DNA of 64,000 nt. Source: Diphasiastrum complanatum. Its lineage: Eukaryota; Streptophyta; Lycopodiopsida; Lycopodiales; Lycopodiaceae. A model generated the notes under the pieces. The model ran no database searches. It was not told the origin of the DNA and was given only the letters and a program-made list of their open reading frames with translations. Positions 3,002 through 30,963 of this stretch are shown here, piece after piece; position 1 is the stretch's first letter; each line of letters begins with the position of its first letter. The DNA lies in contig CM055100.1 in NCBI GenBank assembly GCA_029204225.1, positions 4,264,111 to 4,328,110 on the forward strand, written 5' to 3'. Position numbers and translations under genes: made by a program.

Positions 3002-3007
<6 letters not shown>

Positions 3008-3067
<60 letters not shown>
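3008..3067. repeat. (AG)n microsatellite
   Basis: Sixty bases of pure AG, preceded by about 60 bp of impure GA-rich sequence. Confidence 0.99.
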
Positions 3068-3069
<2 letters not shown>

Positions 3070-3180
3070 ATGCGACAAAGCGAGTGTGTGGCGCTCCCCA
3101 GCAACGGCGCCACTGTTGTGTCGTCGATGTAGCATAGGGGTCCGTTGCTGGGAGCGGCAACCTCGCCTTCACCTGCATAG

Positions 3181-3370
3181 CGAATATTGAAGTGGCTTAT
3201 GATTTTGTGAGAGAACAAGTCATGGCAAAGGAGGTGAAGCTTCAACATGTTTCTTCAAGGGAGTGTGGCTAATATCTTCACCAAAGCATTGGGAAAAGAC
3301 TTGTTTATGAAGCATAGAACCTCACTTAGAGTTCTATCTAAATCTGTGCTAAAACTAGTTGAAGAGGGAG
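3181..3370 (+). pseudogene. copia RNase H tail (3' end of pol)
   Basis: The frame reads FVREQVMAKEVKLQHVSSRE, then NIFTKALGKDLFMKHR, the C-terminal tail found in plant Ty1/copia polyproteins. A shift and a TAA lie between the two blocks. It is followed by a purine-rich tract GAAGAGGGAG and then an LTR starting TGTGAA, the standard end of a copia element. The same tail occurs intact at about 24,480-24,660, so both belong to one family or sister families. Everything upstream of the tail is missing. Confidence 0.85.
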
Positions 3371-4122
<752 letters not shown>

Positions 4123-4480
4123 CTTGGAGCAATGGTTGGATCATTAATAATAAAGTGGTTTTAATGCACATATTGAATGATCTCGAATACTTTGATGTCT
4201 AATTGTTGTCTGTGCGTAATCAGCTGTTTATTTTTCATTCCGCGCATTGGTTTATCTTTGTCTATGCTTAAACGAACTGTCATGTAGGTCAGTAGTGTTT
4301 GTTTACACTCTGGGGGATTGTAGATATGATCTAGCAAGAAATAGCCAGCAGACAAAATCAAATTCCATCCGGGTTCTCAACAGTGGTAACAGAGCGACTG
4401 AAATTCGTGTCGCATCGATCTGTTATGTTTCACTCCCAACAAGTTGGACCTGCTCTCTTTCTAGCCATCACTAATGCTCA
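4123..4480 (+). other. Non-coding; possible LTR end plus primer-binding site
   Basis: No gene seen. At 4376-4395 the sequence TTCTCAACA is followed one base later by TGGTAACAGAGC, one mismatch from the initiator tRNA-Met primer site. This could be the 3' end of an LTR with its PBS. No matching second LTR was found, so this is tentative. Confidence 0.3.
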
Positions 4481-5420
4481 GTCCTTGGGCTCATTCTGTC
4501 TCTCTATTTCCCTCTCTCCCTTGTTCAAATCCATCCTTAGAGTTATCCTTTCTATGAGGAAGCTTATCTTTTGGACAGGGGTTTGTTCCATTTATCCTTT
4601 GGAATCTCTATGGTTCTCTAAAGCGATCACAGCCTTTGGCTTTGACTGAGAACAAACTTTTTCAAAATTTGACTCGTAAAGGCCTTGTTACTTGGGACCA
4701 TATCATGAACTCGATGTTACTCTATCAGTCTTTCTCCTCTCAAAGATGAACTTGGTCTTTCCTCTCGTTAGACTAATTTCCTCTCCTACGCCTTTTTTTA
4801 TGGTGATCTTGGCCTTTTATCTACTTCCTCTGCTTCTGGTGCAACAATAAATGGCTTTTTAGGACCCTTGACAAGTCAAGCAAAATCTCCTACTCCTCTG
4901 TTTTTTTTGCTACCAAAGAACCCAATTTCATTTTTTCGTGGTACAACAGAACTGGCAAGCTTAGAGTCTTCTCTTTGAGAATCCTTCAGTTCTCTCTCCT
5001 TGTCCATGCCAATTACAGATGGGATGTGTTACATGCTTGCTCTAAACACAAAATTTTTGATGAAGATGTGATCCACTTATTTTTTCATTGTTATGCTCCG
5101 CTCTGAAAGATAATATCTGAACTATCTATTGCTCACTTTCACGCCAAGTTCAAGAGATTTAGTCACTTAGATTTATTGCTGAATGATATCATGTTTGATG
5201 ATGCAAATGTCAATGACTATTGGCAATGTATTAGGATCATTACTTTATGGAATATTTGGTTAGATAGAAATAGTAGAGAACTTGGGAATGATGGTTTTTG
5301 CATCTCCCCTCTACTCCTCTTTAAAGAGGCTGATAAACTTATGCTTTTTTAAGTTTTGTTGTTACTATGTATTTTGTAAAAAAATTATAATCTATGGTCA
5401 GATTTCTTTGAGAGAAAAAA
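4480..5420 (+). pseudogene. LINE ORF2 C-terminal (zinc-binding) remnant
   Basis: With frame changes, the stretch reads NRTGKLRVFSLRILQFSLLV, then NYRWDVLHACSKHKIFDED, IHLFFHCYAPL and later TLWNIWLDRNSREL. This matches the plant LINE RT zinc-binding domain: a Cys near the start, a HLFFHC-type Cys/His block, then the W-IW-RN signature. Several stops and shifts make it non-functional. It may be the 3' part of the LINE family seen at the window start, but nothing links them directly. Confidence 0.5.
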
Positions 5421-7192
5421 AAAATGTTCTACATCATATAAAGGTATCGATAGTTTTGGCAAATGGTGAGTACACTAGAGCAAATTTTGGCATTCATGGT
5501 AGTGGCCCTTGAAGTTGAACTAATTTGATGTGTCACACTCGTGATTTAATTATTTGGCAAACTATATTTTATGCAAGTTGGTTTAGGAATATATAAAAAG
5601 TTGACAAATTTTAAAATTTATTTATTTATTCTATCTAAATCCGATTTAAGTACTCCAAAATAGCCATCATACAGAGATGTTGGTGAAAATCTTTCCTTGA
5701 GGTTAGTAGCTAAAATCCACACCACATGTACAATAACAAAAAATGAAGTAGCTCACTTATTACAGTAGTTGTCCATAAAAAAGTGGCATGTCAGATGGCC
5801 ATGAGTTAATAAGTTATCTGATAGTAGTCATTGGCTCGCCACCATCCAAGAGCTCACGAAGGTTGTAGGCGTTTGAGAAAAATATTGGTGGATGCTTCAT
5901 TACTCTAAGATAAAGTGTCTCTTGCCTTTTTTCTTGCTTCTTTAGCATCAAGGCTAGACCTCCACTCACCTATTCATTGATTGACATGATTGAAGTTGAT
6001 TACCCACATATTTACTTAGAACTTCTTTGACGTTCTCTTCGTCATCAGGTTAAGACTTTTCCCTTCACCCTCGAGTTGAAGCATCCTACTTTTCATCTTC
6101 CAATAATTGATCCACAATTGCCTGAGTTAAAAGCACAATCCCATATTATATAATTGTTGAAGGTTATACACAATCATTTTAGTCCTTACCTACCATTGTA
6201 GGTGTTAATGAAATTATTAGTATGTAGAGCCTCTCATTGGTGATAAAGGAGCCACAATTGGTGATGTGCCCTAAGTCTCCCATGGGCCATGGCATTAAAT
6301 ATTGCCCATATATTGAGCAATTGAAGCTATGTTCTAGGAGGATCCTGGTTTGATTAGTGGGGATGTGGACAAATTTTTGAAAGGTTATGTTAGTTTGAAG
6401 GGATGAGCTTGTGCAGTCAATCATTGTGAGTTGAATGACTAGTGTGAGGAGGGGCAAGCTTATGTGAGGATTGCCACTCGTTGCAAAGGGGAATGCCCTG
6501 GTCAAAGGACCTTAGGACCTTCCACTTTTGAGGGCATTTGCCCGAGGGCATTGCCCAGACCAAGGGGAAGGCTTGAGGGCATGGTGCCTTCCCCTGCATA
6601 ATGTCGCATTGTGAGGTGTTTTTAAAAAAAACCTTGACCTAATCTTTAATTTCAAGAGTGAATATCTCCTTAGTCCGTGTCATATGATATTTTTGTTGGA
6701 AAGTTTAGATCTTGGGTGCTATTTAGGGTGGTTCCAAAACACAAAAATTAAATGGGATCCAAAATGCAAAGACGAAATTATAAGGACTTGCATAATGAAC
6801 TTTGGTGAAGTTTCAATTATTGCACAATAAATTATAGAGCTATTATTGAATTCCAAGAGCAATATGCTTGATGCTATTTTGTAGGAAATTTACAAGAATG
6901 GATTCACTTGAAGAAAACCCAAATTTCTCTACAAGTTTTATTCCAAGAAAATCCTGCAGAATGATAAATAGACAGATGGATCTACAAGTGCTGCAAGCTC
7001 TCTACAGTCTGAGACTGACTGATCAGTACGAGTCTCTGAGTAGTAGCGAAGAAGACCCATAAAGAATGGTGTGCATTTAATGATGCACAGATAATCAGTA
7101 TCCAGTTAGCTTATAAGTATCTCAGTATCTGTTGGCAAGTTCCAAAATAATCCCTGGTGCAGCACCAATTTGATAACTTTTTCTGTCTTCTG
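5421..7192. other. Intergenic region, no gene recognised
   Basis: AT-rich sequence with only short open frames lacking recognisable domains. It contains the small GC-rich hairpin at 6564-6594. It is the 3' flank of the pectinesterase gene. Confidence 0.6.
6564..6594. repeat. Small GC-rich hairpin
   Basis: GGGGAAGGC and GCCTTCCCC form a 9-bp stem around a 13-base loop, followed by GCATAATG. It resembles the hairpin at 10,540-10,588, including the following CATTGTG..AGG and T-rich stretch. Confidence 0.55.
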
Positions 7193-9001
7193 TCAGAGTT
7201 CCTGCAGCCAATTCTTTGCATTGATGAAGGCAATGCTCAGAAAAGGCTTGGCTTCCTTGGGTGTCAGCTCTCTCGCCCAGGCAACCCTACTGTCAGTGTT
7301 TGCTCCAGGTCCTCCGCATTTGTATTGAGCGTAAAACACAGTTCTGAAGATCACATCAAAGCTCTCATCAGATTCTGTTCCAAATCTACTGTTGGACGAC
7401 GTAACATGATAATTGCAGCTAGTATCCTTAATCAATATCCGATCGATGATCCTCAGAAGAAATAATGAACTTTGTAGAGCTGCATCCTCAATTCTAGCAC
7501 AGAGATCCATGACTTTTATACTCAAGAAAGACAAATCTGCCGTACGGATGAAATGCAGCTATCTTTCTTCTGAAATTGTAAACTTTGATGCTCATTAACT
7601 ATATTGTCATATATGGGCATAGTATCTCATAATCTATGCTGAAACTGAGCAATGCATGAAGAAAATTAATCAGTAATGCGTACTTGTTGCGAGAGGGATC
7701 CCCCCAGTTGAACCAGCCCTCCGGCAGGATGATGTTATCCATGTAAGTGAAGGCGTATACAACGCGAGAGCGATCACCCCAAGCGCGCCCCAGGTACAAA
7801 TTGCCAGAACCAGTGACAGAGCAATTTACAAAAGAGAAACCCGAATTCAAGATGGTATCGTTTCGTTTCTGGGCGGTGATGGAGCCAATCCCATTGGCTA
7901 TGGAGTGAAGCTGTGAATTCTGAGCAATGCCATTGACAACATAGAGCAACAAAATCAATCAGTAGCTGAAAGTAGGAGCAATTTTCCAAGACAGCGCCGA
8001 TAGCGGACATTGTTCATACCTTGTACAGTGATCTGGCATAGCCGAAGATGAAATCTATAGAGCCTTGGATGTAGCAATTTTTGAAATAATGGCGACCCGA
8101 ATGATCGTAGAGAGTGTCTTGAGCGCCGTAGAAGCTGCAGTTGTAAATGGCAGCACTATCTCCACTGATTCTGAATGCCACAGCCTGTTTTCCAATTTCT
8201 CCGGGGTTGGGAGCAGGCGCGGTATTCTACACAAAAATAAAACTATGTCAGGAAGACTTCTACCCAATATAAGCTGCTTAGCAGGAGAGCAAGAAGGATT
8301 GCTAGTACCTCGAAACGGATGTTCTTCGCAATGAAATAATTGGAATTTACTCCCACAGTAGCGCTGTGGTAAGTGCGGAGAGATGTATCAAATGGAAATT
8401 GATGAACTAAATCGCCCGCTGTAGCATTCCCTGTGATTATAGTTTGGTTCTCTCCATCACCCAACAAAGTTATGAAGGGCTTTGTTTTTGGTATTTCGAT
8501 CTTCTCGCTGAAAAGAAACTAAAATATGAGTAATCAAAAGCAAATTGTTCTTACTAGGAGGAAAAGATCAGATTGATAGACAAAGTTGCATTGTATAATG
8601 AGGAGATACCTGTAGATGCCAGATTTAATGTAAATGATCGTTCGGTTTTTGTTCTTCATCGGCACTGCGAGCAAGGCTTCGGTTATGGTCCTAAAATCGC
8701 CGCTGCCATCCTGAGCTACGACAATCAGTCGTTTGTTTTTCTCGGCATTGGCTATTTTGTGTTTCAATTTTCCGAGGACATCAGGAACAATGCCTGAACT
8801 TCCATCTTTGTTCTCGGAAGTATCACTGAGCTGCAACGATTGCCCAAATGAAGATGGATCAGAAGTTGCATGGACAAATGCCAGCCATGTTTGAAAATCT
8901 CTTTCTAAGCTGCCGTCTGGGAAAACCGTGGATGGCTGAGCAGCACATAACGATACCAGCGCCATAAACAACAAGACACATCCTTCATGCCTTACATCCA
9001 T
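7193..9001 (-). CDS. Pectinesterase (pectin methylesterase), five exons
   Basis: Demethylesterifies cell-wall homogalacturonan. Exons on the minus strand: 9001-8610, 8507-8309, 8226-8020, 7919-7684 and 7343-7193. All introns are GT-AG and phases match, giving 394 codons with no stop or shift. The start is the ATG of MDVRHEG, followed by a hydrophobic segment (about residues 8-22, [12 protein letters not shown]) that looks like a secretion signal. Family motifs appear in order: [10 protein letters not shown] (~100), GIYSEKIEI (the GxYxE motif), FENTA, QAVA (~211), QDTLY (~233), DFIFG (~255, catalytic Asp) and LGRAW (~309, catalytic Arg), then [18 protein letters not shown] near the end. The length fits a PME without the N-terminal inhibitor domain. 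Third base of the usual GRPW is changed (GRAW), also known in family members. It is the best-preserved host gene here. Confidence 0.93.
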
Positions 9002-9035
9002 ATCGCTCAATTGTTAACGGTCTTTCTTCCAGAAA

Positions 9036-9290
9036 GAAGGAATCTCTTACTCAATTCGGAACTACAACAGAACTAGTTCTGTTCTATAATGCCAGTGGAA
9101 ATGAAACTAGAACACGACTACAATAAAGCTTAGCTTAATCTTTCCCTCGATCAGCATGTGAGAAGAAATCTCGTCCTCAATTCAGAACTACAAGAGATTT
9201 AGTGCCGCTCTATAATGCCAGTGGACCCGAAGCTAGAACATGTAACAACAAATGATTTTTTCCCTTTATCAGCAGGTGAGGATGAATCTG
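9036..9290. repeat. Tandem duplication upstream of pectinesterase
   Basis: Two ~125-bp copies share TCAATTC.GAACTACAA, CTATAATGCCAGTGGA, GCTAGAACA and CCCT.. ATCAGCA.GTGAG. They lie 35-290 bp upstream of the start codon and probably include promoter or 5' UTR sequence. The repeated CTATAATG is not a convincing TATA box at this distance. Confidence 0.7.
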
Positions 9291-9299
9291 AAGACTGAA

Positions 9300-10539
9300 A
9301 GTATACTTTATATCAAAGAGCAAGCAAGTTTAGCTGTCTTAGCAGTGCTTATCCAGAAATTTCGAGTGAGCTGCTGTTGCAGCTGATCAGAGAGAGGCAG
9401 ACAGAAGGGTTACGTGTTTTCCACACTTTACGGACAGACTCGACTTTCCGAGGAAAGAGCCCACAGTATAGCGGCTGATCAAAGGGAAACAGGTGCTAGT
9501 CCAAGCAGGCAACAAGCCACGAAAAAACCCACTAATCAAAACTTTTTCGAGCAGCTCAATTTCGTTGTAAGATCCGTCTACCAAGGTTGTCACTTTATAT
9601 GGGCCTGTTTTGTTAGGCTGATGTGGGCAATGAAGCTGGATTAGAGCTGGATCGGAAAATGGATGATGAAAGCAAGGAATGGAGAAGGAAAGGGAAGTAC
9701 ATGCATGTACGCTGGAGGACTAGTGAAGGTGGAGCCCAGGCAAGCTGGAGACTACTGAGCAGTAGTGGCGAAGCCATAGCCAGCGGGTGAGGAACATAGG
9801 AAGAGGGAGAGAAAGGGGGAGTAGATGATGAATAATAATGCATGGAACACTCAATTGCCGTACCTTCTTGACCTTATTCAAGTAGCCGTCTGTCTCCATA
9901 CTCTCAAAAACAAAAAAAAGTATATAAAGCAATTGTTGATATTGGCATTTCACCTGTTCGTCTTTAGCTTTTATTTAGCTTTTGGTCCCATTGTGATAGC
10001 TTCAACTTTTGCTGTCCCCCTTGTGATAAAGCTAGCTACTGTGCTAAAAGCTTACAGGTCATGGGGATAATCTGCTAAAAGCTTATGCGTCATTGTGAAA
10101 AATGCCTTTCTTCTCCTCTTTAAACGTAGTCTTTTTGTTTTCTTGATAATTTTTCAGAGATCTATTTGAGCTCTTTGAATCTGAATTTACATGTGTTAGC
10201 AAGGTTTCTCCTCACACTTTGTTTTAGTTTTAACTAATTGTTAGTTCCAAACTTATAGGTTTTGTAGTATGAAAAAGTGCATTTATTTTAGTGAAAATAA
10301 AAGGTACATGTTATTTTGATATTATGATAATTTCCAGCCTCCAAGCATGTAGAAGGTTTTTGTTTTTATGACATTGGCTTGAGGTTTTTTTTATATGAGG
10401 CTCTCTCTCTCTCTCTCTCTCTCTCTCATGCATGAATCTTTTAGTTATGCCTTCATATAACATATTGCTAAACCTTTTTTTTATTGGGCCTTCACTAAAA
10501 TACCGAGTGAGTAGCACCACAAGCTTTTACCATATGGTT
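9300..10539. other. Intergenic region, no gene recognised
   Basis: Contains a 27-bp (CT)n at 10,401-10,427 and a small duplication of GCTAAAAGCTTA at about 10,040-10,085. No convincing open frame. Confidence 0.6.
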
Positions 10540-10588
10540 ATTACGTGGGGGGGAAGGCCCGAGGGCTTCGGGCCCTCCCCTACGTAAT
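10540..10588. repeat. GC-rich foldback element with ATTACGT ends
   Basis: ATTACGTGGGG at one end pairs with CCCCTACGTAAT at the other, and the inner GGCCCGA pairs with TCGGGCC around a short GGGCT loop. The whole 49 bases form one near-perfect hairpin in otherwise AT-rich DNA. A T-run of about 27 follows. Confidence 0.8.
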
Positions 10589-10599
10589 GCCATTGTGCG

Positions 10600-10630
<31 letters not shown>

Positions 10631-10745
10631 CCGTTTTTTGGCCGTACGGTATGGGCCGTACGGTCGTACGCGTGGACCAGTATTTTTATTTTTTGTTTTT
10701 TTTTTCGGTTTTTTGCTGTTTTTTTTTTTACAAATTTTTTTACGT

Positions 10746-10812
10746 TTGTGGTGGAATGTGGATGTGGACAACCAATGACGGGCTGCCACATAGCACATGC
10801 ACATTCCACCGG
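10746..10812 (-). repeat. Dispersed repeat, copy 1
   Basis: The reverse complement closely matches 27,311-27,375. Shared blocks include GTGGAATGTG, GCTATGTGGCAGCCC, TCATTGG and TGTCCACAT. Both copies lie next to homopolymer T-rich sequence and a GC-rich hairpin-like segment. Confidence 0.75.
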
Positions 10813-10911
10813 AGAGAGGAGAGAGAATGACAGATTCCTAAGAGAGAAAATTGGATGGACATTATGCTCTTGGAGGTGGTCCCAAAATACAAAGGACACC
10901 TGAGCACAAGG

Positions 10912-11067
10912 CATTACGTATTATGGAAGGAGTCGGGCAGAAGCCGTTTTGCCTGGTAAGGATTTCAAAAAAAATTTGGGCTAGGCCCGGAGGGGCCGAG
11001 CCTAAATTTTTATGGAAAGCCGAACCGGGCAGAATGGCCTTTGCCCGACTCTTTCCATTGCGTAATG
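10912..11067. repeat. Foldback/MITE-like element, ~156 bp
   Basis: Starts CATTACG and ends CGTAATG. The arms pair over about 70 bases: ATGGAAGGAGTCGGGCA with its counterpart TGCCCGACTCTTTCCAT, then GGGCTAGGCCCGGA with the GGGGCCGAGCC side. No coding capacity. Probably a non-autonomous DNA transposon of the same group as the 10,540 hairpin. Flanking target duplication was not resolved. Confidence 0.7.
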
Positions 11068-11726
11068 GATACCTGAAATTTTTTCGGAAGCACATTACGA
11101 AGCATAATAGGTAGGTTTGACTTTGACTGACCAACACAAATGTGCCATGTGGCAGCTGTACGGAATCCGTACGGACGGGCACAGACAGGCAGAAAAAAAA
11201 AGCAGAATCTGCCTTTGAAAAAAACACATGCATTTTTTGCTTTTTAATTTATTTGAAAATGGGCATAATATGCAACAAGTATCCATTACTTTGGAAAGCA
11301 TGGGCTTTTCGTAGTTTGCAATAACTTGCTACACAAGTTCAGATCTATGGCCAAGATTATTTCGGTTTTTAGGATTCAAATGTAACGATGGGTAGTAAAT
11401 TGAGTATGGTGCTTCTCATGTCTGGAAAAAGCTATAATGTATCCATGGGCCAGCGTACTTCTACACCTTGCTGTAGTTGCTGAAAAATTTTGCTCTCTCT
11501 TTTTCTCTCTCACTTTCTTGAGATTTGTTACCTTCAATCTTGAATTCTCAATGCTAAATTAAGGAGTGCAGGTTCTCAACGCCTCTATACATGTAATTTT
11601 TGCCGATTTGCTTTTGACAAAAATCGCCATTTTGGTTGCAGCTTTGCTTTGGCATTTGTCAGCTCTTTCTAAGATAGATTGTAGGCTTTTGCAAGAGATA
11701 TCGATTGCTACTTTCAATGCACTATG
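11068..11726. other. Non-coding upstream of copia remnant
   Basis: No gene. Pyrimidine-rich sequence at 11,495-11,520 and GGTTCTCAACGCC near 11,571 may be decayed LTR or leader, but no primer-binding site could be placed. Confidence 0.4.
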
Positions 11727-14500
11727 ACCACCAATGCTTCAGCACCCATTTCAGAGGTAATTTCATTGCTAAATTGTACCAAACTTTGTTGTAGCCAGTC
11801 GCTGGACTAATTATAGGCTAGAAATGGCCATATTACCACACTTTTTCAGAGTTGATTGCTAAATTTCAGTAGCTTTATGCTTCCATCCTGGATTTAATTC
11901 ACACAGATTTATGCGGGCCTATGAGGACCATGTCCTTAGGTAAAGCCTTCTATTTCATGACCTTTATTGATGATATGTCATGTAAGACGTGGATCTACTT
12001 CTTGAAGAAGAAATCAGATGCATTTGACAACTTCAAGAGCTTCAAAGCATTGGTAAAAAATTAGAGAGGTAGGAAGATCAAAGTCCTAAGATCAGATAGT
12101 GGAGGTGAGTACAAGTCTAATGACTTCAATGATCTTTGTGATCAATGTGGGATTAAAAGACAAATTACGCAAGCTCATACGCCTACCCTCAATGGTGTAG
12201 CTGAGCGCAAGAATCGTACGATTGTGGAAAGTGCCAGATCTATGCTAGCTGAGATGAAACTACCAAAAGATTTTTGGTTAGAAGTATGCAATACGGCAGT
12301 CTATCTTCAAAATAGAAGTCCTACCATTGCCATACCAAAGATAACACCTGAGGAAGCATTCACGAAGAAGAAGCCAAAGGTGAACCACTTGCGAATCTTT
12401 GGATGTAAGGCCTTTGTACACATTCCTAAGGAAGAGAGACATAAACTTGATGTAAAAGCTATCAAGTGTATATTCCTAGGATATGATGATCATGTGAAAG
12501 GCTATAGATGTTTTGATCCAGTGGAAAACAAAATCCATGTAAGCCGTGATGTTATGTTTGATGAATCCAAGATGTATGAAGACGAGCATGCTAAGAAGAT
12601 AGATACATCCAGTGGAAAAGATGGTATAGTGAGGATACCACCTGATGATGATCCATTCATTGACCTTACAAGTGATTAAAAAGAGGATACATCTCAAGAT
12701 ACTACTACTAAACCTCAAGAGATAGGTTGGAGAGGTAGGGAAAAACCTTTTGGTGCAAGAAGGATTGAAGTTGCAGGTGACAAACGCAAGGAGAAGGATG
12801 TACTGTGGGATACATTTTCACCAGGAAGCTGATCACCTGACATGAAGCTCCCTAAGTGGTTTGAGAGATTGTTGGAGAGTCGCGACATGGATGACTTTCC
12901 AGGATCATCTAGCCAGGGAGAGCTACGAAGATCAACAAGAGAGAAGAAACAACCTGAAAGGTATAAAGCAAATTATGCTCTCTTATCTAGCATTATTCAA
13001 AGCAAAGAACCTTCGACTTATGGTGAAGCGAAGGATGATGACATTTGGGTCAAGGCCATGGGAGAGGAGATGTAGTCAATTGCTAAGCATAGCACATGGG
13101 ACTTAGTAGAACCACCAGTTGGCAAGAAACCCATGGGTTGCAAATGGGTGTACAGGACTAGATTGGTGATCAAAAGGTATGCACAAAGTAAAGTCATCAA
13201 CTATGAGGAGACCTTTGCACCGGTATGTAAGTGGAATACTCTACGTCTACTTGTTGCTTTAGCTTCACATTTTGGTTGGCCTTTGCATCAGATGGATGTG
13301 AAATCTGCTTTTCTAAATAGTGAGTTAGAAGAATAGGTGTTCATGGATCAACCTGAAGGCTTTGTAGCGAAGGGACAGGAAAATAAAGTATGTTGCTTGA
13401 AGAAAGCGCTTTATGGTCTTAAACAGGCACCACGTGCGTGGTATAGAAAAATTGATGCCTACTTTCGTTCAAAGGGGATAGTGAGAACACATTCTGATCC
13501 AAATCTATATGTCTTATGCTTTGATGGTATGGTTGCTTTGATTGATCTTTATGTTGATGACTTGATTATTACAGAAAATAATCAAGAGATGATAGATATG
13601 ATCAAGAAAGACCTCATGAAACAATTTGAGATGACAGATCTCAGCTTGATGCATTATTGCCTTGGAGTAGAGGTGTGGCAAAAAGGACATGAAGTGGGTT
13701 TAGCACAGGTGAAATATGTCAAAGAGTTGCTGCACAGGTTTAGGTTGCAGGATTGCAAATCAGTGAATACTCCTATTGAACCAGGTAAAAGGCTTTCTAA
13801 GCTTGATGAGTCATAGTCATTTGATGCTACGCTGTATAGGCAGTTAGCAGGGAGCTTGATTTACCTTACCACGACTAGACCAGATATATGCTATGCTGTT
13901 GGCATTGTAAGTCAGTTTATGGCAGCACCTACGAAAACACATTGGAAGGCAGCTAAACACATTTTGCGTTATGTGAAAGGCACTTAAGAGTATGGCTTGA
14001 TTTACAGGAAGCATGATGGTTTACCGGAGTTGTGTGGCTATGTGGATGCGAATTGGGGAGGTGACTATGACGATCGTAGATCCAGCACAGGGTATGTATT
14101 CCAGTTTTGTGGTAGTTGCTTTTCCTGGTCTAGTAAGAAGAAAAGTACAATTGCTCTATCCACCACAGAAGCAGAGTATAAGGCAATGTGTAGTGCAGCA
14201 CAATAAGCTACATGGTTGAGACAAATCATGGAAGAAGTTGGCATGAAGCAGAAAAATCCCACGACATTACATAGCAACAGTCAGAGTGGCATTCAGCTAG
14301 CAAAGAATCTAGTGTTCCATGTGAGAACTAAACACATTGAGATTCAGTATCACTTTATACGTGAGAGGCTGCTGAGTCGTGAAATTCATGTTGTTTATTG
14401 TAGCACATAAGAACAACCAGCTGATATTTTCACTAACCACTTGTTTGAAGAAAAGTTTGATAAGTTTAGATCAAAGCTTTCTGTACTTAAAGTTTGTTGA
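11727..14500 (+). pseudogene. copia pol remnant (integrase, RT, RNase H), nine stops, one frame
   Basis: A possible gag start MTTNASAPISE at 11,727 is followed by a deletion into integrase at about 11,891. From there to 14,500 a single frame runs without any frameshift. Integrase: DLIHTDLCGP (first Asp), VLRSDSGGEY (second Asp), NGVAERKNRT (catalytic Glu), LRIFGCKAFVHIP. Then the RT: MGCKWVYRTR, EETFAPV, QMDVKSAFLN, ALYGLKQAPRAW, LYVDDLII (YVDD catalytic pair). RNase H: GYVDANWGGD, STTEAEYKA, VRTKHIEIQYHFIRE. Stops are TAG at 12062, 13073, 13334 and 13814, TAA at 12677, 13985, 14204 and 14408, and TGA at 12830. A small in-frame deletion removes part of the GSVERYKARLV-type region near 13,170. 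Confidence 0.92.
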
Positions 14501-14529
14501 CTTTAAAGCTATGTATATGACTGTATAAA

Positions 14530-14745
14530 AAGTAGACTCTACTTTAAGGGAGAGAGTTAGAATTAAAGTAGAATCACTATGCAACTGTACTGTGGGTCCT
14601 ATCAGTTGATAAGGATCAGCGCCACGAGGCAAGTCGACGGGACACGCGTCCCGCCAACGGCAACCTGGGTCATGCATGGGTTGCCTGAGTGAACAGCTAT
14701 ATGTACAGTGTAATTTCAAAATTTCAATGGGATAACACTTGGGAA
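14530..14745 (+). repeat. Probable copia 3' LTR remnant
   Basis: The pol stop is followed within 60 bases by the purine tract AAGGGAGAGAG and then TTAGAATTAAAGTAG, the normal position for a 3' LTR. It is at most ~190 bp before gene-like sequence begins and cannot be paired with a 5' LTR, so its right end is uncertain. Confidence 0.45.
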
Positions 14746-15932
14746 AAAATAAGTGCGGACTTTGATGCTAAGGTTTTGCTCGATCCCGAATGATTTGCAT
14801 GGCTATATGTTTGTGTGTTGGGATGGCAACCATAGGTTGTCGGCATGGATCGAGGCGATACATGAGGAGTATGCCAATGATATAAGCAAGCATATACTAG
14901 TGCATGCCAGTTTCATTCAGCCAGATGCAGAGACCGGCATGACCCTGCTGTCTCCTATGAATCGGATCGATAGGTGACATTACTTTTATTTTTGTTGGAT
15001 GTTCATTTGAGTTGGTGTTGTGTTTTTTGTGTTGCTACTCTCCATGTAATCTGTGTATTCTTAGGTTAAATGATTTTGGTGTAATAAAAACGGAGGCTAG
15101 GAGACCAACTTTATAGTGTTCGCCGACTATGCGAGTGCAACATCGACTTCTTCAGGCAGAGGATCTCTCCCGCTGACCTCATTGAAGTGGAGAGAATTCG
15201 GGCAATAGAACTCAAGAGGAGGAACATTATGTGGTATCCCTTGATGAGATATATGCTGATCCGCATATTGTATGAGGTAATTTAGCATTTCAGCAATGTG
15301 TGTTACATTTTTCATAAAACACAGTATTGGTTTGAACACTCATTTGGGAATAATTCTCTGTGTTTTGTACCAAATGACATAAATTTGGAGTTGGATGAAG
15401 CTAAAAGCAAGTTTCAATCAGGAGAAGATGCGACCCACAAGACCTTGAAGGATGCTGAGGGGGTGGTCTATGCCAGGTGGACCACCAAAATGGGTAAGAT
15501 GTTGGGAGTTGTCAACCCATCGCTTGGTAAGGAGTGGTTTGAGCTTGTTACTGGCACAAAACATTCTGGCATGGGAATCTTCCTTGGCTTGGAAAAGCTG
15601 CATCATTTGCGTTGCTCCACAGTGTCCAATCAGGTGAAGTGTAAATGGTTGGGTTGGTGCATGGGATCCATATCCGAGCATTTCAGAATCCCAAAGAGCG
15701 ACAAGGATTTTAGGATATGGGTGACAAAGGAGACATGGTTGGAACACCTAAAGGACACATCCCTCAATGTTCTAAAGGAATGTTTGGCTCCGAGTTGGTG
15801 TTTTAAAACAACCGTTGTTTTTGTTTCATATTTTTATGCTACTCTTAAACTTTGCATAGTTTTTATATAACAAAGTTGGAGTATGAAACAACCTCCAAAA
15901 TCACCCCTAACAGAACAATATATCAAAGTTAC
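14746..15932 (+). pseudogene. 5' part of ParB-like/DNA-methylase gene (split by inversion)
   Basis: First exon (to GATAG|GTGACA at 14,973) encodes LHGYMFVCWDGNHRLSAW followed by IEAIHEEYANDI and HILVHASFIQPD. The DGNHRLSAW block resembles the conserved DGxHRxxA box of the ParB/sulfiredoxin fold. A second exon starts after TTCTTAG at 15,065 and ends near TATGAG|GTAA at 15,276; its frame is uncertain. A third coding stretch (about 15,370-15,775) is clean, with TTKMGKMLGVVNPSLGKEWF and WVTKETWLEHLKDTSLNVLKE, and matches nothing I recognise. The sequence then looks intronic up to 15,932, where copia sequence of opposite orientation starts abruptly. I infer that the rest of the gene is the minus-strand block 22,996-20,703. 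Amino-terminal exons are missing or lie upstream of the copia element. Confidence 0.5.
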
Positions 15933-16224
15933 CTTGTTTTTTAGTAGATAGATCCAACAAAATCTACTAAAATCATCAATGAATGTTACATACATCTTAG
16001 CTCCACTATTGCTAATTGTAGTAAATCCATGAATATCCGAATTTACAAGTTGAAAAGGCTTTGTCGATCTAGATATAGATCTAGTATAAGGTTTTCTATA
16101 TTACTTAGACAAAGCACAAGACTCACAAACATGTTTGATGTCACTTAAGGAACTTGGAAGACCTATCACAATCTTCTTTCTAGCCATTACCTCCAATGAC
16201 TTGAAGTTGAGGTGTCCCATCCTT
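15933..16224 (-). pseudogene. copia pre-integrase and integrase N-terminal part
   Basis: Minus strand reads CESCALSK, then RKPYTRSISRSTKPFQLVNS, DIHGF and KMYVTFIDDFSRFCWIY. This is the GAG-pre-integrase Cys pair followed by the first catalytic Asp region (NSDIHG) and the FIDDFSR block. The TAA between ALSK and YRK is a nonsense change. It stops before the second catalytic Asp, which lies in the 23,019 half. Confidence 0.85.
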
Positions 16225-17500
16225 TTATGCAAGACCTCTTGAATAGTTATTTGCTCCCTTGCTATACACGTCAATCATTTTGGACTTCATCAGAAGAACC
16301 AAAGACCCTAGCCGAAGCATGATCATACAAGCATCTCCATCAAACTCCACCTTGAGGCCTTTACTTAGCATTTGACTCACACTAAGCAAATTCTTGGTAA
16401 TAGATGGAATAGACAAGACATCCTCCAACTAAAGATTCCTATTTGTGGAGAGAGAAATATTGTGCCAATCCCTTTGATTGCACACTCACCATCATTGGCC
16501 ATGTAGATCACCCTCTTGTCATCTCCATATGCCAACAAAGAAGTGAAGTACTCTTTGTGAAAGATCATGTGTGAACTTGTTCCACTATCAATCCACCAAG
16601 GATCTAGATCTCCATCATTAGCAAGCATACATGAAGACATCACAAAAGCATCAACATGTGCATCTTGAACATCCAAACCATCCTCATCAAGAGTAAGATA
16701 ACCTTGCTTGTCTCCTTGATCTCTCTTCTTCTTGTAGCACTCACTTGCAAAGTGTCCTTTTATGCCACAATAGAAACACTTGAGCTTTGATCTATCCTTA
16801 TTTTTGCCACTTGAAGAAGCATCCACTTGATCTGCCCTATAGATCACTTACTTTTGGTTTTGCCCTTGAATTTGCCCTTTGTAAACATGGCATCCTCTTG
16901 AAGTGTCAATGTAGATCCACCTCTTGCTTGAAGCCTATATTATCCATTGATCAAGATCTCTTGAAGATCCATCAAACTTGGCAAAGTCTTTTGAATAGCA
17001 ATACTTTGAAAAATGGTAGCATGAACATTCAACAAGCCATTAAGAATCACTTGAATAAGCTCTCCTTCCTTAATGATTTCATGAATTCAAGACAACTCAT
17101 CATTCCATGCTTTCATCCTCAAAACAAAAGTACTTGGACTTTCTTCATTTTTTTGCAAACAAGAAAAGATTTTTTTTCTTAGAGTCAACCCTCTAGAAGT
17201 AGACTTGGATTCATAAAGCTTCTTCAATGAATTCCAAGCTTCCAAAGATGATGTGCACTTACCAACTTCCTTGAGAAACTCATTGATAACATTCATCTTT
17301 ATCATGTGTAGAGCCTTCTTGGCCCTCTTGTCATACCTCACTTGATCTTGTTGTGTTGTTGGCCTCTCCTCCAGACCTACAACAATATCCAAAACATCAT
17401 TCATCTCAAGAAGTGACTCCATACTCACTTTCCACAATGACTAGCTACTTGAGGTAAGCCTATCATTGGCTTCCAACATGACTCCACTTGAGGTTGCCAA
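16225..17500 (-). pseudogene. copia gag, zinc knuckle and protease
   Basis: The gag core (17,437-17,087) reads as the UBN2-type retrotransposon gag: RAKKALHMIKMNVINEFLKE, TSSLEAWNSLKKLYES, LTLRKKIFSCLQKNEESPST. Further on, CFYCGIKGHFASEC is a CCHC knuckle (C-x2-C-x4-H-x4-C) at about 16,775. The protease follows with WWIDSGTSSHM (active-site DSG) and then VLSIPSITKNLLSVSQ. Frame breaks near 16,900-17,090 and 16,400 separate the blocks, so no intact polyprotein is encoded. Confidence 0.88.
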
Positions 17501-18089
17501 GTAGCAATGATCTGATCTTCTCTTTCAAACTGTTTCAATGCACAAAGCACTCCTTTGAACAACAACAAATTCTTTCAAAAGAAATTACTAAGATTTGAAA
17601 CTATCTCAAAAATTCTCTTCTAGCACTTATACCAAGGAAATCAACACATAGAATCATGGAATCTTGATCAATCTATGATCTATCCTCAATCTAATGACTT
17701 TTGCCACTTCCTAAGATTGAAACACACTCAAATGAAGTCCATCAACCTCACTATCTAGAGATCCAATCAAAATTAGGGTTTTGACAAAATCATAAAAAAT
17801 TGACTATTCCAAATCTACATGCAAATGTTGAAAATTTGATATCCAATCTATTAGCCACCACTAAGGCTGATCCAATGATCCAAAAATTGGCCAAATCTAG
17901 TATGTGAAATCAAAAACCAGAATTGATCAAGTTTGTAAACCTATGTAGGGTTTTGATCTACAAAAGATCCAAATTACAAAAACAAAAAACTTGATTTTGG
18001 TGTAGAATCCTCTCTAGCATGCTCTAGCCTTGATATCTTCACCAAATCATTGATAGATCCGATTTCCTCCTTCATAACCTGAAATACAA

Positions 18090-18101
18090 ACCCTGATACC
18101 A
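18090..18101 (-). promoter_or_regulatory. Primer-binding site (initiator tRNA-Met)
   Basis: On the minus strand TGGTATCAGGG directly follows the LTR end, matching the 3' end of initiator tRNA-Met as in most copia elements, with one change from TGGTATCAGAG. Confidence 0.85.
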
Positions 18102-18735
18102 TGTGAAGGATCTCGGATCATTATGATCCAATCCACTTGAAAGATCTTTGGTTAGAAAGAAAAATACACTACCAATCTCACCAATGTAGAAAAAAAACAG
18201 CATCTACACACAAAATAAGATGCAAATACTAATAGAACCTGATCAAACTTGAATGAAATGATAAAGTACTGTTGTTGTTCGTACAAACTCGCAAACTATT
18301 GTATTTCACACGTGTGGATCCGAAAATAGCAAATATAGATCATTCTACACATAGAATTGCATGCAATCACAAGTATAGTGCACCAATGGATGGTAGAACC
18401 CAAGAGAACCATGTATAAGCATGAAATGAGATAGAGAAGAGAGAAGAATCCTCTCTCCACGAGTTACATCCAAACCCTATTTGGCCACTTGGCTTTCCCT
18501 CCAAAATGCTAGCCCTACTATTTTTGGGTCTAGATTCAAAGTACCCAACATTCAAATTTGAATCTACTCAAATTTGCATTCTAACTTTCCCACACTTTCA
18601 AAAGGTATTTATTCAAATGACATTTAGACTAATGAACTTTGAAAAGTCAATCTCTAAGTCTAAAAACAAAGTTGGCCTCAATATGCCAAATATGGAAATA
18701 TAGCAAATATGATCAAACTAATTGAATCTTTCACA
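18102..18735 (-). repeat. copia 5' LTR (634 bp), TATA box deleted
   Basis: Begins TGTGAAAGATTC at 18,735 and ends GATCCTTCACA at 18,102, with 6-bp terminal inverted repeats TGTGAA/TTCACA. It aligns along its length with the 24,669-25,317 LTR. At about 18,470 it lacks a 15-base block that in the partner contains TATAAAA, so its promoter is probably dead. 634 versus 649 bp differ by exactly this block. Confidence 0.9.
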
Positions 18736-20702
18736 CAACAACTTATTTGTTTGTTCTATAGGAGCATAAGGTAGAAGTGTAGTACCAGTGATTGGTGTAT
18801 GTTTCAATTCTATCAAATAATAAGGGCCACGTCTCGATAACATGGACTGCAATCACCTTCCACGACAAATTTACATTCCGCTTAACACATTTAGAGCTAT
18901 CATGATAGTATCTGTTATACAAAGAAGTAAAGGCAGATAGCAATTGAATCATTGGTCTACTAGTCATAAGTAGATCAGAACCTCATTCACATAATAAATG
19001 TTATTATACTAGAAAGCAATAGCAAACTGGAATGGTGTGTTTAGCTCAAAGCAACAGTGGTGTAGTCATTGAGCTTTCAATATGAAGCATCCAATGAGTG
19101 TGGATGTTTCTAGATAACACTATTGTAACACTATTGACCATGTTTCCTTTGTTGTCTTCCAGCACATTTATTCATCGATCAAAAGAGGAGTCCGGACAAT
19201 CTGCGAGTAAACGGTTTGCGAGTTTCGTGAGTTTTTTTTTGAAATGTAAGTCCTCATAAGTGTAAGTAAAGTGTGGGCTTCTGTATAGTCTAAATGAGTG
19301 TGTGTGTGTGTGTGTGTGTAAGTGTAAGCGTAAGTAAGTACAAGTCTAAGTGTGTGAATACAAGTCTAATTGTTAATGTCAGTAGATGTAAGGTTAAGGT
19401 GTACATGTTAGAACGTATTTGTGTACGTTTTAGTGTGCACGTGATTCTGATGTGAATAAGGTGGAGGAGACATAACAAAATTTATATCCCTATATTTGGA
19501 TACATGATCTACACTACCCATTGTCTCAGTCGTTGGCATTCATTTAGTTCAACAAGTATAAGTGCCAATGCGGGTTTCTGTATATAAGTCCAAGTGTTTT
19601 GATATAAGTCTACGTGCAAGCACAAGTAAGTATAAGTAGTCATGAGTGTGAATACAAATCTATGTGTAAGTATGTATAAGTATAAGTATGAGTGTGAATA
19701 TGTAAGTGCAAGACTGCGTCAGTGTGTAAGTGTAAGTGTACGTGCACGTGTAAATATATGTGGGTAAGTGTAAGCAATTGTAATTGTGAGTGTTAATTAG
19801 AGTAAGTGTGAGGGTAGTAAAGTGTAGGTGTGAGTGTGGAAGTGAATGTGGCAGTGCAGGTTAGTTTAAATGTAAGCGTTATCATTGCACCGTGGGTATA
19901 TTTAAAAGTAATTCTGAATCTAAATTGAATACAGTGGAGGAGATAGAACAAAAATTACTGTTATTGTAAGTAAGTGCAAGTGTATGTGTACGTGTGAATA
20001 TATGTCTAAGCGTGTGAATATATGTCTAAGCGTGTAAACATAAGGGTAAGTGTGTAAAGGTAAGTGCTAGTGCTTAAGTGTAATGCATGAAAAAAAATAA
20101 TAGCTCAAATCTTCTTGAAATCATAGTTGATGTAATATGTATTCACAGGAGGTGTCCTGCGAATATCTTTATGGTTGAGAAACGATTGCGAGGTTCTTGG
20201 GCTACACTCTTCTGTATCATTTTGCTTTGGAGGAATGCAAGCAATATGTTTCCCTTATGCAAGTCCCTCGCACGGAGCTGGATTGTTATATTATGAGAGT
20301 GGTGATGTATCAAAACTTGTGCTGTAATGGTAAATGGAACAATGCTGTGATGTAACTTTTTTAAGAGATAACACAATCTCATGAAAATGGAACGGAGTTT
20401 CAACCTCGGTCAAAGCCCACAAAGCATAATAGAGAAACATCCGAACACCAAAATCATTTCCCAAGAGAATACTGAAATGACGCAAAGAACATGTCTAAGG
20501 CTACACTATCCATATTAATGCCTTTTAAAACTAGGCTTTCATTACAATAGATACCAAACCAAACTTTATATTCAAAACCGAATATCCGTTTCTCAAAAAA
20601 TACATGACTTCCGGATTCGTCGACTACTACCGATTCAGAAAATCACTTTTAAAAAAACGACAGGACACAAACAACAATTGTTTAAAAAATGTGCTATCTA
20701 AC
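18736..20702. other. Non-coding, largely GTAAGT-like simple repeat
   Basis: Right flank of the 5' LTR. A 74-codon open frame (18,967-18,743, minus) has no recognisable domain. From 19,255 to 20,070 the sequence is made of degenerate GTAAGT/GTGTAA units. 20,087-20,700 holds no gene I can support. Confidence 0.55.
19255..20070 (+). repeat. Degenerate hexamer-based repeat domain
   Basis: About 800 bp rich in AAGTGTAAGT, AAGTATAAGT and TCTAAGTGTGTGAATA units, with a pure (TG)n at 19,297-19,319. A ~20-bp unit with GTGTGAATATATGTCTAAGC is exactly duplicated at about 20,000-20,035. Confidence 0.8.
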
Positions 20703-22996
20703 TCAATCCTCCACACACTCGTCATCAACAAACAACAATCTTGGATGCTTCCTTGATTTCGCGACACGAACCATGTCGTACGAATGCTCCATCTCTCTGG
20801 CTAAGAACTCTGCATAAACATGTAATTTCCTATTATTAAAGTAGTGATGCATTGGATTATCCTGAAACATCTTTAAATATCATACAATGAATTTGTTATT
20901 ACCATCCTTGGAACTCTTTTATTTCCCAGTCACTGATTTGTGCCTCATCCTCTGCACCTGCTTCTACGTCATCGTATGTATGTGACAAAGCTATTGGGGT
21001 CTCTGTTTGAGTAACTCAATGAAATGAATACGAAAATTAAGCTATTTAAACAATTGTAAAGTAGTTCGTAACATGCCAACAAAACATCATAGTCCAACTT
21101 GATGCTCTCCAAATAGGACAAATGAAGACTCCACAAATGAACCACAACATTGTTGTATGAACACATTGGCAAGCTCTAGCAGAGTAGCCAAAAAATGATA
21201 AAGGATGTTAGAAATGTGAAGCGAGACAACAAAGCAGAAAGCAACAACTTGATCACATAATGCCCTCACCATATCTTCTGGAAGCCAACTCCAGCAAATG
21301 TTTGTCCTTCTCCATTGCGATACAGTGCCTGTTTGTGCTAGCAGCTGCGTACAACAAACCACCACATCCCATGAAGGGGTCTACTAATACCCCGCCTGAC
21401 TTACAACACATTTCCACCAAAAAATGAATGAAATCTGGGCTTTTTTCAACACCTCCCCGCATACACACATTCCCTGCTGCATCCAAAAAATGCTCTACAA
21501 GTGGAAAATGGTGAATCCAATGATTTTTGGCCAAACAATGCTGGGTCTATTGAATCACAAGCATTCATTGGGATCGGTGGAGTGTACTTTGATCGACATG
21601 TGATGCACATACCAAGCACAGACTCCTGTAGAAAATTCCACAAGTTATCATTGTAGTTATAAACACTCATGCCTCAAAGAAATGATTCGACATGTAAACA
21701 TAAACTCACTTACCTAGATTCCCGGAACAGTGACACCAAAATCCATGGTACCACGCAAGATTGTGTACCGCACGACCACGAGTCCAATTCTTTTTGAAAT
21801 CCTGGTAAATGTGTGGATGTCGGATATGCTTGTGATACCCACCACAAAACCAGTGTCATCCAGAATAGAAGAAGCAAATAGTAGGGCTGCCTCAACCAAG
21901 TCATCAGTGATGACATTCCATGAGGAAACAACACCCCTTGAGCCCTTAGGGATAAACCCTGTGGGAAAGTCTAGCAAAACCATGTCGACACTGTACTAGA
22001 CATGTTTATCTTTTCTGAACCTATTACCTGAACAAATTGTCTTCAGGTGGCCCACTATCTCTTGTAATGCCACAGACAATGTTTTTGTTGTAGCACTTCT
22101 TGCAATCTCCAACACATCTCCACACAAAGTAAAGTAAACAACTAAAACGAAACAAGCCAAGCATGAGCAAGCATGACATTGTAGACCAAAAACACGGCTA
22201 CTGAAACTGCAATGCTGCAGAAAAAAAGAGTACAAGGGCATATCTTAATCCCTTGGGCCGCAGAATATGGTGTGGGAGTCAAGAACTCGTACTCCTCTTG
22301 GCTGATTGCGGTGTGCTTGGTTGGATGCGGAGAACTTGTCCGAAGGTCATCTTGCAAATCCTTTATGATCTCCTCAACCGCAATCTCTTTGCCCTTGCGT
22401 TGTCTCTTCAAGAACCGATATTTTGGGACCACTGGATCCTGCCCTCCTGCATCATTGAGTCGGGTCTCAATAATGGAACCCTCCTCAAGTTTTGTGATAC
22501 CCACATCCACAATAACCGACTCTACACGCAATGTACCGCTCTGATGTTGTTTGTACAGTTCCGTCTCTTCGGAAGGGCATGTACCACCAGGAAAATCAAT
22601 CCACCAAGGATTATTTTGCACCTCCCAATTAATAAGACTTCTCTGGTTATGAAAGTACATAAACGACTCCTTGTCATCTTTATTCAGCCATAGTTTAAAA
22701 AGGTTGGTAGTTGCGCCACCTTTTTGAGCGATACAAGATATGAATAATACTTGTGTTCAATAGTTATGAGCATATGAATTCCAATTCAAAAATTACTCAT
22801 GATATAATCAGTATTGAATGAATAGCAAACCTCTAGACCACTCTTTTTGCAGTTCCACGGATGTCTGGCTATTCCGTCGCACCCTTTGACAACTCCATGT
22901 CTTTCTCTATGGCATGGAATATTTTTTTTTGATTCAAAAGTTTAAAATCAGTAAAATACTCCTCCATAGATGCACATCCCTGAATATCCATTGGCC
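20703..22996 (-). pseudogene. 3' part of DNA N4/N6-methylase-like gene (split by inversion)
   Basis: Minus-strand exons, approximate: 22,996-22,831 (acceptor TTTTTCAG), 22,719-22,234, 22,141-22,028 (or 22,018), 21,990-21,714, 21,625-21,270, 21,002-20,903, 20,819-20,703. Exon 3 has LCGDVLEIA. Exon 4 has VDMVLLDFPTGFIPKG, which aligns with methylase motif IV ([DNS]PP[YFW]) but reads DFPT. Exon 5 has GGVEKSPDF (motif X-like) and VLVDPFMGCGGLLYAAAS (motif I, SAM binding), then IAMEKDKHLLELASRR. Order IV-then-I is that of beta-class amino-methyltransferases. Exon 1 needs one extra A in a nine-A run and exon 5 one in a five-A run to stay open; exon 4 ends in TAG next to GTAAGT. The last exon reads MEHSYDMVRVAKSRKHPR and ends VDDECVED-stop, though its junction phase is unresolved. 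Substrate unknown. Confidence 0.6.
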
Positions 22997-23018
22997 CTGA
23001 AAAATGATGCAACATCCA

Positions 23019-24668
23019 AGTCAATATGATGTCTTTATCAAGTTCAAGAATTCAAGGGAGAACCAATTTTCCACAAAGATCAAGTGCTTAAGGAGTGACA
23101 ATGGTGGTGAGTACATCTCCTCTTTGGATGAGCCTACAAGTGTAGATCAAGCAAGGAAAGAAGAGGAATGGAGCCAAGAAATGCATCTTGAGTATCAAGC
23201 TCGTATGAAGAATGAAACATGGATATTGGTGGAGTTACCTAAGGACAAGAAAGCTATTGGATGAAAATGGATCTTCAAGGTGAAGACAAACCAAGATGGA
23301 TCTATCAACAAGTACAAGGCAAGGTTAGTGGCAAAAGGATATGCTCAACAACACTATGATGAGATCTTTGCACCCGTGGCAAAGATGGTAAGCATTCAAG
23401 TCATCATTTCACTTGCTACACTTTATGGATGGGATCTATGGAAAATGGACATTTCAAATGCATTCTTGAATGGTGATCTTGAGGAGGAAGTGTACATGGA
23501 GCAGCCCGAGAGCTACATTTCATCTACAAAGCCAAATCATGTGTGTCTACTACAAAATAGCTTGTATGGCCTTAAGCAAGCACCAAGGGGTTGGTATGTT
23601 GAGCTTAACACTTTTTTACTCTCTCAAGGCTTTGTTAGAGTGAGTATGATCATTCACTTTATTATAGGTTTGCTGGAAATGATGTTACCATATTGCTAAT
23701 CTATGTGGATGATATCATCTTGAGTGGTGGAGACAATCAAGATGTGGAAGATATCAAGAGTGCTCTTAAGAAGGAGTTTGAGGTACATGATCTTGGTAAT
23801 TTGCATTACATTTTGGGAATAGAAGTCATTAGATCTTGTCAGTCTACTTTCATTTGTCAAGAGAAGTATGCTAATTCTATTCTAGAAATATTTCATATGG
23901 TAGATGCAAAAGCTAGTGATTGGAGTCTCATGTAAAGCTAACTATAAGAGGTAATGAAAGATCCTTTGAGGACATTACTCTCTATAGAAAGGTAGTTGGT
24001 TTACTCATTTATCTAAACATTACTAGATCAGATCTAAGCTATTGTGTTGGAAGATTGAGTCAATTCATGCAAGATCCTAGTGAGGTGCATTGGAAGCTAG
24101 GAAAGCGAGTTTTGAGGTACATCATTGGAACTCGAGATTTTGGCATATTGTATGAGGGATCATCATCTAATTTTTTTGGATTTTCAGATTCGGACTATGT
24201 TGGAGATGTAATGGATAGGAAATCCATTAGTTCTCATTGCATTTTCATAGGTGATGGAGCTATATCATGGATGTCGAAGAAACAAAGCCACTATCTCATG
24301 TCATCTAGTGAGGCCGAGTACAAAGCTCTTACACATTGCACAAATGAGATGGTATGGATCAAGTGGATGATCAAAGATCTTCACTTGTTGGATTTTTCAG
24401 AGATCCCAATCATCTTTTGTGACAATCAATCAGCCCAAATATTGGCAACCAATCCTATCTTTCATACTAGAAGCAAGCATATTGAGGTGCAATATCATTT
24501 TGTGAGGGAGCAAGTCATTGCAAAGGAGGTGGATCTTCAAGATGTGTTTTCAAGGGAATGTGTAGCTGATATTTTTCACCAAAGCATTGGGAAAGGACTT
24601 GTTCATGAAGCATAGGATATCACTTGGAGTGTTATCAAAGTCCATGCTAAAACTAGTTGAAGAGGGAG
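23019..24668 (+). pseudogene. 3' half of copia element (integrase end, RT, RNase H)
   Basis: Begins mid-integrase at SQYDVFIKFKNSRENQ with KCLRSDNGGEY (second catalytic Asp). An internal deletion at about 23,118 then jumps to just before the RT. RT: DKKAIG, KWIFKVKTNQDGSINKYKAR, DEIFAPVAKM, KMDISNAFLN, SLYGLKQAPRGWY, then LIYVDDIILSG (YVDD) in a shifted frame. RNase H: GFSDSDYVGD, SSSEAEYKAL, RSKHIEVQYHFVREQ, ending in VADIFHQSIGKGLVHEA. Frame shifts occur at about 23,690 and 23,930. This is the natural continuation of the half at 15,933-18,735. Confidence 0.9.
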
Positions 24669-25317
24669 TGTGAAAGATTCAACTAGTTTGATCATATTTG
24701 CTATATTTTCATATATGGCATATTGAGGCCAACTTTGCTTTTAGACTTAGAGATTGACTTTTCAAAGTTCATTTGTCTAAATGTCATTTGCATGAACACT
24801 TTTTGAAAGTGTGGGAAGGTTAGAATGCGCGTCTGAGTAGATTCAAATTTGAATGTTGGGTACTTTGAATCTAGACCCAAAAATAGTAGGATTAGCATTT
24901 TGGAGGGAAAGCCAAGTGGCCAAATAGGGTTTGGACCTACTATAAAAGGATGTAACTCGTGGATAGAGGATTCTTCTCTCTTCTCTATCTCATTTCATGC
25001 TTATACATGGTTCTCTTGGGTTCTACCATCCATTGGTGCACTATACTTATGATTGCATGCAATTCTATGTGTAGAATGATCTATATTTGCTATTTTCGGA
25101 TCCACACATGTGAAATACAGTAGCTTGCTGGTTTTGTACGGACATCAATAGTACTTTATCATTTCATTCAAGTTTGATCAAGTTCTATTAGTGTTTGTAT
25201 CTTATTTTGTGTGTAGATGCTGATTTTTTCTACATTGGTGAGATTGATAGTGTATTTCTCTTTCTAATCAAAGATCTTTCAAGTGAATTGGATCATAATG
25301 ATCTGAGATCCTTCACA
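24669..25317 (+). repeat. copia 3' LTR (649 bp) with TATA box
   Basis: Follows the polypurine tract GAAGAGGGAG; runs from TGTGAAAGATTC to GATCCTTCACA. TATAAAA lies at 24,941-24,947 about 70 bp before a TCTTCTCTCTTCTCTATC stretch. The base run after the LTR is GTTGT. The far side of the partner LTR, read in element orientation, ends in GTTG. Confidence 0.93.
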
Positions 25318-26487
<1,170 letters not shown>

Positions 26488-30487: not shown

Positions 30488-30689
30488 ATCGCTCCTCTGA
30501 TGCGTTGTAGCAAGCGTGACAGAAACTGATGCTCTAGCAAACACTCTTCTGATCTTAAGGGCCTGTGCTTCCGAAGTGAAATGCTAATCACTGTTGCAAC
30601 TACTGTAAGCAGGATTCTAAAAGGAGCTTGCTTGTGGTTCTCTTTCGACGCCAACTGGAGGTTCCGTGGGATGGTCCTTTTCTAGCTCT

Positions 30690-30963
30690 TTTTTTAGTGC
30701 ACTCGGACATTTGTGGTCCAATTCAAACACTTTCCTTTGATGGAGCAAAATACTTCATCACCTTCAATTCTCAAGTGTGATAGCAAGAGTTGCATTGAGA
30801 TTCAATATCACTTTGTTCGACATCAAGTTGCAGATGGCAAAGTACAATTGGATTATTGTGCTACAGAGGATATGGTTGCTGACATATTCACCAAATCACT
30901 CACTAAGGATAAATTTGAATTTTGTAGAAGACAATTAAGAATAGTTCATGATGACATGTCTTA
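30690..30963 (+). pseudogene. Fused integrase tip and RNase H tail
   Basis: LVHSDICGPIQTLSFDGAKY (integrase first-Asp region) is joined at about 30,768 to KCDSKSCIEIQYHFVRHQ, ADGKVQLDYCATEDMVADIF and TKSLTKDKFEF, ending in a stop 22 bases before the 3' LTR. The whole RT is absent. Confidence 0.88.

Follow-up and report, generated by a model that had tools for sequence, protein, structure and literature searches.

Simple inversions that arise when double-strand breaks are repaired by non-homologous end joining have been described for Drosophila (PMC2775673), and end joining has also been described at wheat indels (PMC7156093). Among the systems set out in the Drosophila paper, the simple end-joining inversions resemble the locus reported here in that two breaks lie in unrelated sequence, the segment between them is reversed, homology is absent, and the loss is minor; there they separate species or strains, whereas here a single sequence carries a segment of only 7 kb. 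Duplications of the kind that can arise from staggered breaks, also described there, have no counterpart at the present breaks. The inversion attributed there to ectopic recombination of Galileo shares with this locus a transposon at a breakpoint, but a transposon occupies only one of the present breaks, and the other yielded no second copy.

We analyzed a window of 64,000 nt from the clubmoss Diphasiastrum complanatum (the whole stretch of DNA studied), in which a copia LTR retrotransposon and a gene are each present as two halves on opposite strands. The gene was traced with a homologous D. complanatum protein of 1124 residues, O6H91_08G053900 (P0001 below). In the reading we favor, at a probability of about 0.86, the copia element inserted and an inversion of ~7 kb by non-homologous end joining then cut both the gene and the element. 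The features are listed here in window coordinates.

14719..15797, plus strand: upstream part of the gene; exons matching P0001 residues 313-600, the last exon reaching a GT donor at 15798
15798..15932, plus strand: left part of the cut intron, proposed
15933..23018, no strand: proposed inverted segment, 7,086 bp
15933..18101, minus strand: left interior half of the element; primer binding site TGGTATCAGGG, gag, zinc knuckle, Pol_BBD region, and first part of the integrase, cut after ...LLKNK
18102..18735, minus strand: 5' LTR of the split copia element, 634 nt, TGTGAA...TTCACA ends
21268..22996, minus strand: downstream part of the gene; exons matching P0001 residues 623-1092, with N6_N4_Mtase (PF01555) at 21283-21447
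22997..23018, minus strand: right part of the cut intron, proposed, ending in acceptor TTTTTCAG
23019..24668, plus strand: right interior half of the element; integrase from SQYDVF to GGEY, internal deletion, reverse transcriptase, RNase H, and polypurine-like AGAGGGAG
24669..25317, plus strand: 3' LTR of the split copia element, 649 nt, TGTGAA...TTCACA ends
25318-25322: candidate target duplication GTTGT, directly after the 3' LTR

An earlier sequence-only reading had placed the end of a minus-strand copia half at 15,933 and the start of a plus-strand half at 23,019, and both positions held: the 5' LTR and the beginning of the integrase run from 18735 down to 15933, and the remainder of the integrase leads to the 3' LTR over 23019-25317. 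Pfam models identified gag (PF14223), a CCHC zinc knuckle, and Pol_BBD in the minus-strand half and RVT_2 in the plus-strand half. The integrase start scored 19.2 bits with PF00665, below the curated cut-off of 32.6, and the integrase remainder and RNase H region, for which no Pfam match of their own was found, were assigned because they resemble other copia copies of the window (e.g., the one at 54-58 kb). Once the halves are taken in sequence, the order gag, protease, integrase, reverse transcriptase, RNase H holds, with gag, Pol_BBD, and RVT_2 above the Pfam cut-off, integrase below it, and RNase H placed by similarity only. The primer binding site after the 5' LTR, presumably of the Met type, and the polypurine-like stretch before the 3' LTR were recognized by eye. 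The LTRs and the order of gag, integrase, and reverse transcriptase are thus those of a typical Ty1/copia retrotransposon; the interior differs in being split by the proposed inversion and in a deletion between GGEY and the reverse transcriptase. About 160 nt separate GGEY and the reverse transcriptase motif in this element, compared with 830 nt in the copy at 55-56 kb and 1038 nt in the copy at 12-13 kb, and by this spacing a further internal deletion is apparent in the split element.

The two LTRs belong to one family and share their terminal TGTGAA/TTCACA, as first noticed from the letters alone, and they match in 598 of 633 ungapped columns (94.5% identity), with 35 mismatches, 27 of them transitions, and 17 gap columns. 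Dating the insertion by its LTRs had been proposed, and the comparison gave a K2P distance of 0.058, or about 2 million years at the rate of 1.3e-8 substitutions per site per year used for grasses, which may not be the rate of this plant. The 5' LTR lacks 15 bp of the 3' LTR that include a TATA-like CTATAAAA, and its promoter may therefore have been lost with them.

The flank before TGTGAA of the 5' LTR is AAGTTGTTG, and that after TTCACA of the 3' LTR is GTTGTGTCC. The claim that GTTG abuts both ends was accurate as a 4-bp match; a target site duplication of Ty1/copia elements is usually 5 bp, and the 5-bp GTTGT is obtained only if two additional bases precede the 5' LTR. Random pairs of positions in the window, in 200,000 trials each, matched in 0.54% of cases (0.0054) at 4 bp and in 0.41% (0.0041) at 5 bp with an offset of 0-2, the offset having been permitted only after the data were seen. 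Same-family LTRs with a common flank speak against the possibility that the halves are truncated remnants of two distinct copia elements and two distinct genes that came to lie head to head by chance.

A further argument against such a coincidence comes from the integrase, whose coordinates in the two halves are complementary to within one codon. The left half ends in ...FIDDFSRFCWIYLLKNK (last codon AAG) at 15933, and the right half begins with AGT, reading SQYDVFIKFK, at 23019 in the same frame. The right half had been described as resuming in precisely the next integrase codon; the frame is indeed kept, but the join is one codon short. The stretch from the Ser after Lys to the R[SL][DN] before GGEY spans 28 residues in all four other integrases of the comparison and 27 in the split element. 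Of these four copies, those at 43 kb and 47 kb are closely related; the integrase piece at 30688-30765, a fifth, does not extend into the compared stretch and was left out. When the right piece was shifted by one residue, it shared 15, 12, 10, and 8 identities out of 27 with the 55-, 12-, 43-, and 47-kb copies, compared with 1, 2, 1, and 2 identities unshifted. Because the shifted alignment is far better, the missing codon is placed at the join itself, with ~3 bp probably lost at the break. Alternatively, the copia family of the split element could have been without that codon already before the event. A random loss would retain the frame with a chance of one in three.

The gene provides a second split structure. 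Of 1,693 candidates, P0001 alone was found (E 2.1e-88), aligning with 97% of the plus-strand half at 49% identity, in a search whose words and scoring came from the plus-strand half (residues 1-305 of a joined 830-residue query) and whose accepted lengths were set by the joined query. The minus-strand, methylase-side half alone found no match among the 7,997 database candidates sharing most words with it, and residues 230-830 of P0001 used as a query found only P0001 itself among 5,733 candidates. A tblastn comparison of P0001 with the window yielded 10 matches at E up to 10, of which 8 had E values of 1e-3 or better and two, elsewhere in the window, were weak (E 2.2 and 2.4). On the plus strand, 14719-15762 matched residues 313-335, 338-398, and 410-600; on the minus strand, residues 623-672, 682-796, 834-970, 970-1002, and 1009-1092 followed from 22961 down to 21268. 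The order is unbroken, with a single change of strand between residues 600 and 623, and the matched gene bases come no closer than 171 bp and 58 bp to the element breakpoints. The best match scored 188 bits on the plus and 114 bits on the minus strand, whereas 20 shuffles of P0001 reached no more than 30.8 bits. Since one homologous protein runs through both halves in order, the plus and minus halves are best read as belonging to one gene, and a protein that spans both is again difficult to reconcile with a chance meeting of two truncated genes.

The labels first given to the two gene halves needed correction. The plus-strand exons do run up to the left break at 15,932, but the name ParB-like is without Pfam support: the exon that carried it matched 0 Pfam families, and none named ParB was found for P0001. 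Similarly, the acceptor TTTTTCAG does lie 22 bases inside the right break on the minus strand, but the exon that it opens is not the methylase-like one, since it corresponds to P0001 residues of about 612-672, upstream of the methylase domain. The window gene keeps the order of both P0001 halves and the methylase match and differs in being without a match for residues 1-312 and the last 32 residues (tblastn over the window; for residues 1-312, bases 1-14960 were searched as well, with a best unrelated match of E 2.6) and in having stops and frame breaks. The exons flanking the cut intron join, as they stand, out of frame, and the downstream part contains in-frame TAG codons at 22869-22871, 22833-22835, and 21996-21998; for these reasons the split gene looks now broken. 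A plus-strand copia piece at 11882-14560 stops shortly before the first gene exon identified (14719) and may have taken the place of the gene's 5' part; the window yielded no partner for its putative LTR (14530-14720). Downstream of the gene and within the inverted segment, a degenerate GTAAGTGTAAGT-like repeat tract was noted by eye at 19230-20080.

The N6_N4_Mtase profile (PF01555) matched the window gene at 36.9 bits (curated cut-off 26.7) and P0001 at 33.8 bits, in both cases over only the C-terminal quarter of the profile. Methylases of this family are expected to carry a DPPY/SPPY-type catalytic motif. By eye, both the window gene and P0001 have DFPT at the expected place, which makes catalysis by the methylase-like domain doubtful. 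The methylase-like gene (21268-22127) has one other detected relative, P0001, and is possibly a non-catalytic, lineage-restricted methylase. Within residues 1-312, P0001 has a Pfam Myb domain. Its matches to solved structures (E 2.4e-7 or weaker) mostly linked the first 60 residues to Myb-type telomere-binding factors and residues 1032-1094 to DpnA methylases, and no reliable match was found among these structures for the middle of the protein. Among viral contigs, P0001 gave 3 pattern matches and 0 relatives, and the downstream gene part had no match in phage records. The fold of P0001 predicted without an alignment had a mean pLDDT of 35.2, too poor for use.

We assessed how narrowly the two structures define an inversion by scanning 720,600 inversions, with their ends placed in 10-bp steps between 14000 and 26000. 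The gene blocks became collinear in 167,200 of these and the element blocks in 83,032, and both did so in 85, all of which had their ends within 15770-15930 and 22970-23010; the abutting blocks limit each other, and these fractions are not probabilities. The integrase continuity falls at the corner of the narrow region fixed jointly by gene and element. The original proposal that turning 15,933-23,018 around restores element and gene together is therefore upheld by the 85 inversions. Its order of events, with the inversion after the copia insertion, is likewise supported, as both split structures are accounted for and one protein spans both gene halves.

The breaks themselves had been predicted to lie in non-homologous sequence, and this is what we found. 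Microhomology is zero at either junction, and inverted words near the breaks are not unusually long, the observed length being reached by random pairs with frequencies of 0.23, 0.41, and 0.78 within 100, 300, and 1000 bp. A self-comparison of the window (E 1e-8, at least 60 nt) revealed no repeat joining the two break regions. Because the breaks have no homology, the structure fits end joining. The ancestral joins are recognizable with little loss, the integrase being one codon short and the gene resuming across one proposed intron; on the gene side, the loss is not measurable, as the join lies in that intron. In the proposed course of events, a copia LTR retrotransposon would have inserted downstream of a gene related to the clubmoss Myb/DNA-methylase-like protein. 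One double-strand break would later have fallen within a gene intron and another, about 7 kb away, in the element's integrase region; the segment between them would have been rejoined in reverse by non-homologous end joining without microhomology, with about 3 bp of the element lost at the join. We infer both this repair pathway and the assignment of the 3-bp loss to the inversion event.

Transposons elsewhere cause inversions by ectopic recombination, as described in PMC2775673, and the segment could in principle have been turned by recombination between inverted repeats or by the activity of another transposon. We regard this as exceedingly improbable: no inverted repeat pair was found joining the two break regions, and the LTRs do not lie at the inversion ends but, on the inversion reading, became inverted through the event. 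The facing LTRs would then be a consequence of the inversion and not its cause, and the copia element looks like its victim rather than its mediator.

The main rival to an end-joining inversion is an assembly error, in which a 7-kb contig or read block was misoriented and the organism itself is collinear. One end of the segment does lie within repetitive copia sequence in a window dense in repeats. However, the window contains no N, the self-comparison (E 1e-8, 60 nt) shows nothing similar to the intron end elsewhere in the window, and no unusual inverted repeat that could mislead an assembler occurs near the breaks. Misorientation would also not remove about one codon at the join, unless the copia family never had it. 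We thus consider such an error unlikely and infer that the inversion is present in the organism rather than in the assembly.

The content of the window is that of plant DNA: besides the gene related to P0001, it contains pieces of a pectinesterase gene (in 3 of the 9 pieces scanned) and many broken copia pieces. At 42415/42416, an RT/RNase H end on the minus strand (42416 to 41772) meets, head to head, a stretch from mid-gag to integrase on the plus strand (from 42415). This pair was considered as a second simple inversion and rejected, as most of the reverse transcriptase is missing and one inversion does not repair it. A related copia fragment at 3183-3414, from the RNase H tail to the LTR start, is 83% identical to 24479-24708. 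A plus-strand copia copy with a shortened interior at 46195-49131 is 86-89% identical to parts of the piece at 42.5-44.3 kb and has LTR-like direct repeats at 46195-46582 and 48730-49131 (72% identical). With so many broken pieces, including the 42415/42416 junction, truncated elements could be expected to meet by chance, but the two sides of that junction are not complementary, in contrast to the halves of the split element, and a chance origin of the locus is very unlikely.

With respect to its kind, the proposed inversion is ordinary, a clean example of a known sort of damage. Where a transposon and a gene are cut together, a single sequence is enough to infer a small inversion and to locate it almost to the base: the split element and gene give the order of events (insertion first, inversion later), the breakpoints, and the repair signature. 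It is rather doubtful, though conceivable, that the window preserves a further homology-free rearrangement besides this inversion and that this repeat-rich genome often rejoins broken DNA in inverted orientation. Genome-wide, split elements could be used to date and count small inversions. If the rearrangements at 15933-23018 and 42415/42416 are both real, split copia elements may provide a genome-wide detector of small inversions that works from a single sequence.
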